DNA from: Salvelinus alpinus
Taxonomy: Eukaryota; Chordata; Actinopteri; Salmoniformes; Salmonidae
DNA: 64,000 bases
Assembly (NCBI RefSeq): GCF_045679555.1
Contig: NC_092096.1
Coordinates: forward strand, 14,427,556-14,491,555
Direction: 5' to 3'
Part shown: one piece after another, positions 8,801-14,800 of the stretch
Position numbering within the stretch: position 1 is the first letter of the stretch
Layout of the letters: each line of letters starts with the position of its first letter
Notes under the pieces: model-generated
Told to the model about the DNA's origin: nothing
Databases searched by the model: none
What the model saw: the letters and a program-made list of their open reading frames with translations, nothing else
Translations under genes and position numbers: made by a program

Positions 8801-11800
8801 CTCAACGTCTGGGAGGATTCAGACCATCATCAGCCCCTGAGGTAAAATAACCTCTGGGAAACTCTCCCCTGCTCCTTCCAGAGTCCGCAGTCAATGCCAA
8901 TCTGTCCCCACTGCAGTGGGAAGACAAGTCCTATTGAATTATTGAAGAGGAAAACAAGGCGGAGACGAGAGGAAGCATGTCCCGGCTACTCACTTCATCT
9001 GGACAGTGACACGCATGTTGGTCGGGACGAACTTGCTGATAGGGATTTGGAAGGAGTAGTTTCCTGACCTGAATGGAGATGAAATATACCATCAGTTTGG
9101 CAGTTGGATTTTAAATCTATAAATGAGTTCAAACTGACTGAATACGTACCCACAGCTTCCCCTCTCACAGTACCGAGAGTCAATGATCTGTTCGTTTTCT
9201 TTGATCAAAAAAGACTTTATCGTTGTGTTTGTCCCTGAAAATAGAACAACAATCTGATGTCATACTCTAAAAGTATTGTGAAATAAACTCAGAAAACTCA
9301 GAAAATAACATATTTGGATTAGCATTAAAATGTGTCTTCAAAGAATGTGATAGATTTTGACTTACAATCTCCGGCACCTTTGATTTCTTCATTGAATTTG
9401 TCTTTCCCTTTATCTGAGAAGGCAGAATTGGAACAAAAACAAGTGGGATTACTGCATGTCACAAGCAGCACAATGCCAACACTTTATAGAGCATCAGAAT
9501 TACGTCTCATTCAAGGTCGTCAACATGAAGGTTTTACGTCAAGATAAGCTAGCATGAAGAAAGAGATACAGTGGTGATTACTGTTGGTAAATGAAGACAG
9601 GGAGTAGCCAGCTCACCTGCTAGAGAGGGCCCGGTAGTGGGACATACAGTGGTGACTGCTGTTGGTAAATGAAGACAGGGAGTAGCCAGCTCACCTGCTA
9701 GAGAGGGCCCGGTAGTGGGAGATACAGTGGAGGAGAGGAGGGCAGGAGAGATGGTGCTGGTATTATCCATGGAGGCTGTAGTGGGACAGCAGAACACTTC
9801 TTCACAGTAGATCAGGCTACAGAAGTCCACATCAGGGGTCCACGGGACAGGGGGGGTGGTTGGGCTTACTAATACATAAACAAACAAACACATAAACAAA
9901 CAAGGGTCAATTTCCACAGAAAGGACTACTCATGACAGACAGCAACACTTTTACCACCTCTTTGTACAATAGAATTGAATGAGACATCACAACGTTACTA
10001 TGATGAAAGTAAAACTATATAAAGAGCATTTATGGGTTGTTTACCTAAGGTAGACCTGACTGTTGTGGTGTAGAGAGCTTGTTTACCTAAGGTAGGCCTG
10101 ACTGTTGTGGTGTAGAGAGGATGTTTACCTAAGGTAGGCCTGACTGTTGTGGTGTAGAGAGTTTGTTTACCTAAGGTAGGCCTGACTGTTGTGGTGTAGA
10201 GAGTTTGTTTACCTAAGGTAGGCCTGACTGTTGTGGGGTAGAGAGTTTGTTTACCTAAGGTAGGCCTGACTGTTGTGGTGTAGAGAGCTTGTTTACCTAA
10301 GGTAGACCTGACTGTTGTGGTGTAGAGAGCTTGTTTACCTAAGGTAGGCCTGACTGTTGTGGTGTAGAGAGTTTGTTTACCTAAGGTAGGCCTGACTGTT
10401 GTGGTGTAGAGAGCTTGTTTACCTAAGGTAGGCCTGACTGTTGTGGTGTAGAGAGTTTGTTTACCTAAGGTAGACCTGACTGTTGTGGTGTAGAGAGCTT
10501 GTTTACCTAAGGTAGGCCTGACTGTTGTGGTGTAGAGAGTTTGTTTACCTAAGGTAGGCCTGACTGTTGTGGTGTAGAGAGCTTGTTTACCTAAGGTAGG
10601 CCTGACTGTTGTGGTGTAGAGAGTTTGTTTACCTAAGGTAGGCCTGACTGTTGTGGTGTAGAGAGGTTGTTTACCTAAGGTAGGCCTGACTGTTGTGGTG
10701 TAGAGAGTTTGTTTACCTAAGGTAGGCCTGACTGTTGTGGTGTAGAGGTTGTTTACCTAAGGTAGACCTGACTGTTGTGGTGTAGAGAGGATGTTTACCT
10801 AAGGTAGGCCTGACTGTTGTGGTGGAGAGAGGATGTTTACCTAAGGTAGGCCTGACTGTTGTGGTGTAGAGAGGATGTTTACCTAAGGTAGGCCTGACTG
10901 TTGTGGTGGAGAGAGGATGTTTACCTAAGGTAGACCTGACTGTTGTGGTGTAGAGAGGTTGTTTACCTAAGGTAGGCCTGACTGTTGTGGTGGAGAGAGG
11001 TTGTTTACCTAAGGTAGGCCTGACTGTTGTGGTTTAGAGAGGACGTTTACCTAAGGTAGGCCTGACTGTTGTGGTGTAGAGAGGATGTTACCTAAGGTAG
11101 GCCTGACTGTTGTGGTGTAGAGAGGTTGTTTACCTAAGGTAGGCCTGACTGTTGTGGTGTAGAGAGGATGTTTACCTAAGGTAGGCCTGACTGTTGTGGT
11201 GTAGAGAGGATGTTTACCTAAGGTAGGCCTGGCTGTTGTGGTGTAGAGAGGATGTTTACCTAAGATAGGCCTGACTGTTGTGGTGTAGAGAGGATGTTTA
11301 CCTAAGGTAGGCCTGACTGTTGTGGTGGAGAGAGGTTGTTTACCTAAGGTAGGTCTGACTGTTGTGATGTAGAGAGGTTGTTTACCTAAGGTAGGCCTGA
11401 CTGTTGTGGTGGAGAGAGGTTGTTTACCTAAGGTAGGCCTGACTGTTGTGATGTAGAGAGGTTGTTTACCTAAGGTAGGCCTGACTGTTGTGATGTAGAG
11501 AGGTTGTTTACCTAAGGTAGGCCTGACTGTTGTGATGTAGAGAGGTTGTTTACCTAAGGTAGGCCTGACTGTTGTGATGTAGAGAGGTTGTTTACCTAAG
11601 GTAGGCCTGACTGTTGTGGTGTAGAGAGGATGTTTACCTAAGGTAGGTCTGACTGTTGTGGTGTAGAGAGGTTGTTTACCTAAGGTAGACCTGACTGTTG
11701 TGGTGGAGAGAGGATGTTTACCTAAGGTAGGCCTGGCTGTTGTGGTGTAGCGAGGATGTTTACCTAAGGTAGGCCTGACTGTTGTGGTGTAGAGAGGATG

Positions 11801-14800
11801 TTTACCTAAGGTAGGCCTGACTGTTGTGGTGTAGAGAGGATGTTTACCTAAGGTAGGCCTGACTGTTGTGGTGGAGAGAGGATGTTTACCTAAGGTAGGC
11901 CTGACTGTTGTGGTGTAGAGAGGATGTTTACCTAAGGTAGGCCTGACTGTTGTGGTGTAGAGAGGATGTTTACCTAAGGTAGGCCTGACTGTTGTGGTGG
12001 AGAGAGGATGTTTACCTAAGGTAGGCCTGACTGTTGTGGTGTAGAGAGGTTGTTTACCTAAGGTAGGCCTGGCTGTTGTGGTGGAGAGAGGATGCACAGT
12101 AGTCTCGTTGCTGCAAATCAAAAAACATGATATGACCTTTGAAATTAATTCCACATTCAGTTCTGGATAGCATTGTCACAGATGATAATAAAGTTTGAGT
12201 CTCAGTAGTATTCTTGGCACCGTAGACTTGGCAAATAAAGGCTGGCGGAAACTGTAGTCTGTGAAGCCAGTTCAGTGGTGTGTCTTACGTGCTTCCAGGA
12301 AACAGCATGCCGGTGTCGTCTCTCAGAGTCAGCATGTAGAGAGCTGTGATGACAATAGAACTGTGGCAGAGACATAGGGACGTCATAACACTTCATAACT
12401 CATACATAACACATTCATAAACATGACATAAGAAAAAAAAAAAACATCGTCAGGCCCAGACCAGGGGATTTACAATGCAGGTACATCAACAACAAAAAAC
12501 TTCAAGTGTCGATTTATGAAAAGGAATAGTGACCTTCTCTATTCTAAACTCTCCAATGCTTTTCTACAGTCACGTCCTACCCTTTCTGATCGTCAACTTC
12601 TCTCACATTTTGATTTCTCTGATACAGTTATCGGAATAGACAAAGCTTTATGCATTCAATATTATATTATATTCAGGTAGAGGTAACTGCCAAAATAATG
12701 GAAACACTTGAGTAAACGAGGGATACAAAGAATATTGAAAGCAGTCGCTTCCACACAGGTGTGGTTCCTGAGCTAATTAAGCAATTAACATCCTGGCACG
12801 CTTAAGGGTTATTATTTATATTATATTATCATGCTTAAGGGTTATTATTTATATTATATTATCATGCTTAAGGATTATTATTTATATCATATTATCATGC
12901 TTAAGGATTATTATTTATATTATATTATCATGCTTAAGGATTATTATTTATATTATATTATCACGCTTAAGGGTTATTATTTATATTATCATGCTAAAGG
13001 GTTATTATTTATATCATATTATCATGCTTAAGGGTTATTATTTATATTATATTATCATGCTAAAGGGTTATTATTTATATTATCATGCTAAAGGGTTATT
13101 ATTTATATTATATTATCATGCTTAAGGGTTATTATTTATATTATATTATCATGCTTAAGGGTTATTATTTATATTATCATGCTTAAGGGTTATTATTTAT
13201 ATTATATTATCATGCTTAAGGGTTATTATTTATATTATCATGCTAAAGGGTTATTATTTATATTATATTATCATGCTTAAGGGTTATTATTTATATTATA
13301 TTATCATGCTAAAGGGTTATTATTTATATTATCATGCTAAAGGGTTATTATTTATATTATATTATCATGCTTAAGGGTTATTATTTATAATATATTATCA
13401 TGCTTAAGGGTTATTATTTATATTATATTATCATGCTAAAGGGTTATTATTTATATTATCATGCTAAAGGGTTATTATTTATATTATATTATCATGCTAA
13501 AGGGTTATTATTTATATTATCATGCTAAAGGGTTATTATTTATATTATATTATCATGCTTAAGGGTTATTATTTATATTATATTATCATGCTAAAGGGTT
13601 ATTATTTATATTATCATGCTAAAGGGTTATTATTTATATTATATTATCATGCTTAAGGGTTATTATTTATATTATCATGCTAAAGGGTTATTATTTATAT
13701 TATATTATCATGCTTAAGGGTTATTATTTATATTATATTATCATGCTAAAGGGTTATTATTTATATTATCATGCTAAAGGGTTATTATTTATATTATATT
13801 ATCATGCTTAAGGGTTATTATTTATATTATATTATCATGCTAAAGGGTTATTATTTATATTATCATGCTAAAGGGTTATTATTTATATTATATTATCATG
13901 CTTAAGGGTTATTATTTATATTATCATGCTAAAGGGTTATTATTTATATTATATTATCATGCTTAAGGGTTATTATTTATATTATATTATCATGCTAAAG
14001 GGTTATTATTTATATTATCATGCTAAAGGGTTATTATTTATTATATTATCATGCTTAAGGGTTATTATTTATATTATATTATCATGCTAAAGGGTTATTA
14101 TTTATATTATCATGCTAAAGGGTTATTATTTATATTATATTATCATGCTAAAGGGTTATTATTTATATTATCATGCTTAAGGGTTATTATTATTTATTAT
14201 CATGCTTAAGGGTTATTATTTATATTATATTATCATGCTAAAGGGTTATTATTTATATTATCATGCTAAAGGGTTATTATTTATATTATATTATCATGCT
14301 TAAGGGTTATTATTTATATTATATTATCATGCTAAAGGGTTATTATTTATATTATCATGCTTAAGGGTTATTATTTATATTATATTATCATGCTAAAGGG
14401 TTATTATTTATATTATATTATCATGCTTAAGGCCATTACTTAGGTTACCATGGCTATTCCCCCGTTGATGACAATGCCCCCATCCACAGGGTTCGAGTGG
14501 TCACTGAATGGTTTGATGAGCATGAAAACGATGTAAACCATATGCCATGGCCGTCTCAGTCACCAGATCTCAACCCAATGGAACATTTATGGTAGATTCT
14601 GGAGCGGCGCCTGAGACCACCGACAACAAAACACCAAATGATGAAATGTCTGGTGGAAGAATGATGTCACATCCCTCCAATAGAGTTCCAGACACTTGTA
14701 GAATCTATGTCAAGGTGCATCGATGCTGTTCTGGCTGGTGCTGACCCAACGCCCTAGTAAGACACTTTATAGTTCCTCTATTTTGGCAGTTACCTGTATA

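Follow-up and report, generated by a model that had tools for sequence, protein, structure and literature searches.

The gene and its donor-bearing minisatellite

We analysed a stretch of 64,000 nucleotides (nt) from Salvelinus alpinus (NC_092096.1, positions 14,427,556 to 14,491,555; hereafter the window), in which a gene of the MYRF family of membrane-bound transcription factors carries, at the end of one exon, a minisatellite of 42-base-pair (bp) units that repeats the splice donor of that exon in every copy. Our model of this gene, on the minus strand from 23066 to 5765, has 20 exons and, with exon 16 ended at its first donor, an uninterrupted reading frame of 919 residues. The product matched four Pfam families, all above cut-off and in the order NDT80_PhoG (3.8e-28), Peptidase_S74 (1.1e-15), MYRF_ICA (1.4e-21) and MRF_C2 (1e-42), as well as four sequences in the PDB, which are MYRF structures. 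The modelled exons are free of stops, and a pseudogene was rejected on these grounds. Likely N-terminal exons near 30200 and 24000 stand apart from the 20-exon model. The human sequences would favour MYRFL over MYRF, and the gene is thus a putative MYRFL.

Hydropathy showed that the membrane segment is split between two exons of the model, with its first half in the exon at 14912..14988 and its second half in exon 15 (12289..12360, ending in phase 2), both on the minus strand. The numbering of exons 15 to 17 is taken from a preliminary description of this DNA. The C-terminus of MYRF lies in the lumen of the endoplasmic reticulum, and its luminal domain is described as poorly conserved (PMC3742443). 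The array therefore sits where the preliminary description had placed it, just past the membrane segment, and the gene family that it had named is likewise supported.

When ended at its first donor, exon 16 spans 53 nt (12058..12110, minus strand) between the acceptor TTTTTGATTTGCAG and the donor TAG/GTAAAC, where the slash marks the exon edge, and finishes in phase 1. It makes open joins to exons 15 and 17 and fits the exon model, in agreement with the acceptor and donor first proposed for it. Since the exon measures 53 nt, skipping it would shift the frame. Exon 17 (9695..9868, minus strand) has the acceptor TGTTTATGTATTAG and the donor CAG/GTGAGC.

Tandem Repeats Finder (TRF), run on the window, reported 49.0 copies of the 42-bp unit with 95% matches at 10035..12091. 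Read on the minus strand, every one of the 49 units closes with CTTAG/GTAA; the donor sequence is TAG/GTAAAC in 48 of them and TAG/GTAACA in the remaining one, and CTTAGGTAA, which bears AGGT, is present in 49/49. The array begins in GTGCATCCTCTC, and after the last unit exon 16 ends ...CTTAG/GTAAACAACCCATAAATG. Donor edges run from 12058 (the first) to 11092 (the 24th) at a spacing of exactly 42 bp throughout, as had been claimed. A 23-base core, allowing up to 2 mismatches, gave 47 matches where 100 shuffles averaged 0.01, and the array of donor-bearing units is therefore not due to chance. Viral contigs gave 0 exact matches to the array pattern, as expected for fish sequence.

We joined exon 16, ended at each of the 49 donors in turn, to exons 15 and 17. 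The frame was open with donors 1-24 and with none of the rest, giving 24 open joins among the 49 and bearing out the claim that the first 24 are in phase with exon 17. Exon 16 measures 53 nt through donor 1 and 1,019 nt through donor 24, and the difference lies in units 2-24 (11092..12057, minus strand), an open extension of 23 x 14 codons; the figure of up to 322 extra residues was thus correct. The intron to exon 17 is 2,189 nt long from donor 1 and 176 nt from donor 49. Among units 2-49, 46 of the 48 are 42 bp long, a multiple of three, and the exceptions measure 41 and 40 bp. Unit 25 (41 bp, 11051..11091, minus strand) lacks one base of the GTAAAC of donor 24, a deletion that shifts the frame, and at unit 33 (40 bp, 10717..10756, minus strand) the phase is restored. 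Donors 25-32 are therefore out of phase, in a block that holds TAG stops. Beyond it donors 33-49 regain the phase of exon 17, a return through two short units that the preliminary description overlooked. Read-through to donors 33-49 hits the stops in units 25-32.

Substitutions and splice-site strength

Substitution types were counted over the 46 units of full length between units 2 and 49. The 13 types, at 12 positions, comprise 1 synonymous, 11 missense and 1 nonsense change, the last in unit 26 of the frame-shifted block. The synonymous share expected was 0.27-0.31 of all changes, and a two-sided test against the synonymous-to-missense ratio gave P 0.07-0.13, the deviation being a shortage of synonymous changes. 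In units 2-24 we counted 8 types (7 missense, 1 synonymous), and the chance probability of zero stops among 8 is 0.68-0.75. The earlier statement that no base change makes a stop stands for units 2-24; the change in unit 26 would turn Tyr into a stop if that unit were read in its own frame. Diversity is similar in the three blocks, at 0.043 in units 2-24 (23 units), 0.050 in units 25-32 (7 units) and 0.029 in units 33-49 (16 units). Substitution types, the chance of stops and the diversity of the blocks together led us to reject selection for an open frame, the openness of which the preliminary description had offered as a sign of constraint; the comparison of synonymous and nonsynonymous changes across units that it called for, run here, showed no amino-acid constraint.

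The 12 variable positions all lie outside the 10-nt donor core (hypergeometric P = 0.02, uncorrected). This place was named in advance, yet the longest invariant run of the array, 11, is ordinary for an array with 12 variable positions (P 0.21; comparison of 22 arrays), and we rejected the invariant core as strong evidence. A second 42-bp array in the window, at 41737-42528, has an invariant run of 14. No amino-acid constraint on the array is demonstrated, and there is a weak hint of constraint on the donor.

Splice sites were scored with a donor matrix built from 18 donors and an acceptor matrix built from 19 acceptors, all of this single gene model. The exon 16 donor scored 1.9, and 17 of the 18 other donors scored higher (range 1.6 to 10.1, each left out in turn). 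Its pairing energy with U1, calculated with an assumed sequence of the U1 5' end, was -6.7; among the 18 others 6 were weaker, 1 was equal and 11 were stronger. The exon 16 acceptor, at 8.4, falls within the range of the gene. Donor-like motifs scoring at least 1.9 occur in the units of 22 of the 40 other arrays (counted by eye, with the count checked), so a donor-like motif in each unit is not remarkable by itself.

Tandem arrays and exon junctions in the window

Counting arrays with a TRF score of 150 or more, we found 41 merged tandem arrays, which make up 48% of the window and 47% of the gene span. The genome of Nothobranchius furzeri, which is called tandem-repeat-rich, contains 21% tandem repeats (PMC2688266). 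Array periods are divisible by three in 15 of the 41. Exons generally avoid the arrays, with 166 of 2,762 modelled exonic bases inside them, and only 2 of 38 junction bases lie within an array against 17.9 expected, a count as low being reached by 0.09% of circular shifts. Both array-borne junctions are donors, those of exons 16 and 17, and none of 20 acceptors is in an array. Arrays are depleted at junctions, and those that span one are therefore rare survivors.

Besides the exon 16 array, two arrays in the window copy a donor, and one of these is out of frame. At the end of exon 17 a 78-bp duplication (2.1 copies, 9566..9730, minus strand) includes the donor and creates a second one after 9617, which is in phase and open and would add 26 residues. 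The other belongs to a neighbouring Rabin8-like gene (Pfam RAB3A-like_C, 4.6e-14), in which an exon end with the donor GAG/GTAACA stands in four copies at 50846-51110 on the minus strand, with edges at 51066, 51001, 50932 and 50863. The spacings of 65, 69 and 69 refute the idea that all junction arrays come in multiples of three. Of these donors the first alone preserves the frame, and joins from donors 3 and 4 in addition run into a stop. All distal donors of the array break the frame, and the array is therefore tolerable only if the first donor dominates.

Donor use, known ladders and further motif-bearing arrays

Donor ladders as a kind are already known from human genes. In ABCA7 the units of a variable number tandem repeat in intron 18 are 25 bp long, each starts with a donor GT, and copies number from 12 to about 427 (PMC5954066). 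As in our array, the repeats begin at an exon end, donor 1 here being the end of exon 16, and the donor recurs in each of many units. The first unit of ABCA7 provides the canonical donor and the next is used at a low level, with one unit retained in 2 +/- 1% of transcripts independently of array length, while skipping of the next exon depends on length (PMC5954066). The ABCA7 period is not a multiple of three and its second donor breaks the frame; here, in contrast, the 42-bp unit is open and mostly exonic and 24 donors are in frame. UBC and VCX3A carry tandem in-frame AGGT sites that are dual-specific, and reverse transcription PCR of UBC gave a ladder of whole units, described as without tissue or feedback regulation; in the same account 77 human introns are multiples of the surrounding repeat unit, 45 of them with a unit divisible by three (PMC10809524). 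Our array shares with UBC and VCX3A an AGGT in every tandem unit and steps in multiples of three. The UBC units, however, are 228 nt long and coding in their own right, whereas the present ones are short, lie at an exon-intron boundary and hold weak acceptors.

Human minisatellites at exon-intron boundaries within segmental duplications also alter gene structure, often with alternative transcripts, and the variable internal tandem repeats described there (about 30 bp x 4) resemble our array in reshaping exon-intron structure; they are shorter and found in primate duplicates, and a donor in each unit is not among the features given in the excerpted account (PMC2812944). In-frame choice between neighbouring donors is likewise known from GYNGYN donors, described as pairs of sites with steps of 3, 6 or 9 nt (PMC1779574, PMC2279118), unlike the 42-nt ladder seen here. 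Searches of the open-licence PMC literature listed neither a MYRF-family array nor an in-frame short-unit donor ladder like this one. The claim that no gene with such a ladder had been described, however, gives way to the precedents of ABCA7 (PMC5954066) and of UBC and VCX3A (PMC10809524).

We infer that the array arose from a tandem duplication in which intron base +6/+7 was linked to an exon position some 36 nt upstream of the exon end, with the intron side of the breakpoint after GTAAACA and the exon side at CATCC. Such a join would make each 42-bp unit out of about 36 exonic nt, the donor TTAG/GTAAAC and 6 intronic nt, and unequal exchange or slippage may then have expanded the array to 49 copies. 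In this array-rich locus it may have survived on a splice junction because it did little harm. The acceptor-proximal donor would still yield the exon at its ancestral 53 nt, and each slip along donors 2-24 would lengthen a poorly conserved luminal linker by 14 residues with the frame kept. The precedents of ABCA7, UBC and the human boundary minisatellites would lead one to expect mainly donor 1 together with a weak in-frame ladder. We consider the array to be most likely, at moderate confidence, a neutral junction-spanning minisatellite in which donor 1 would serve most transcripts and the next few donors would give a weak, stochastic leakage in 42-nt steps.

Several observations weigh against this preference for the first donor and for neutrality. 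The exon 16 donor is weak by the matrix of its own gene, although less so by U1 pairing energy, and donor 1 therefore need not win. The 42-bp period and the exon 17 duplication are both multiples of three and open, which would fit the use of distal donors, and the absence of variable positions from the donor core would fit selection on donors. In addition, the ABCA7 product is out of frame and subject to decay, so that its 2% is a low figure and understates use (PMC5954066).

It is possible, though we think it unlikely, that the array is inert intron, with donor 1 alone ever used and the open units 2-24 a by-product of copying the exon end. The stop-free state of these units is what chance would give, periods divisible by three and donor-like motifs as strong as that of exon 16 are common among the arrays of the window, and the Rabin8-like gene tolerates a donor array that is out of frame; on the other hand, 48 of the 49 donors are nearly identical to the one used, and in ABCA7 the second donor is measurably used (PMC5954066). 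At the opposite end, the ladder may be both used and selected, yielding related proteins that differ in the luminal linker by threonine (Thr)-rich steps of 14 residues. The open joins from 24 donors, the invariant donor core and the in-frame duplicate of the exon 17 donor would suit this, as would the ladder seen in UBC RNA. The substitution types, however, give no indication of amino-acid constraint, the array has kept its frame break at unit 25, an invariant run of this length is nothing unusual among the 22 arrays, and UBC splicing is itself described as unregulated by tissue or feedback (PMC10809524). We regard selection of this kind as very unlikely. That the cell uses the ladder in this way, making a graded set of MYRF-type proteins with 0 to 322 Thr-rich residues added to the linker through 24 in-frame donors, with a copy number free to change by unequal exchange tuning the distribution between individuals, seems to us quite improbable.

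The units might also act as dual-specific sites, with AGGT serving as both acceptor and donor, or as decoys for U1, or, as many bound U1 particles, disturb splicing, and so lead to excision within the array, to retention or to the skipping of a neighbouring exon. TTAG/GTAAAC includes the AGGT core described for such sites (PMC10809524), an internal excision running from one of units 1-24 to one of units 33-49 would bring the phase back, and longer ABCA7 arrays raise skipping of the next exon (PMC5954066). As an acceptor, however, the TTAG of the unit scores 1.0 and the best AG within it 3.3, against 1.2 to 12.8 for the 19 other acceptors of the gene. A single unit, at 42 nt, is moreover shorter than the usual vertebrate intron. 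The prospects of this explanation appear slim.

If the ladder is used, a single minisatellite would provide variation in protein length that is made by splicing, safe for the frame and dependent on copy number, as well as a clean natural experiment on the spliceosome's choice among up to 49 almost identical donors. A neutral array would still be an extreme in-frame counterpart of that in ABCA7, and it suggests that many arrays spanning a junction exist in minisatellite-rich fish genomes and would allow the rules of tolerance to be measured.

Other arrays in the window carry splice-like or coding motifs. Within the MYRF-family gene, an 18-bp minisatellite (5.3 copies, 16773-16868, minus strand) encodes NPANGS repeats at the 3' end of the exon that follows the ICA domain. 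A 62-bp intronic array (21.8 copies, 24434-25794, minus strand) has an acceptor-like CTCCTACAG/G in every unit, scoring 6.9 by the gene's own matrix, and may form an acceptor ladder ahead of an N-terminal exon. Good donor-like sequences recur in two further arrays, GAT/GTAAGG (score 8.4) in each unit of a 62-bp array (15 copies, 38532-39464, minus strand) and GGT/GTGAGA (score 6.5) in each unit of a 46-bp array (38.7 copies, 51334-53111). Finally, an open stretch of 569 codons at 62294-64000 on the plus strand runs off the end of the window.

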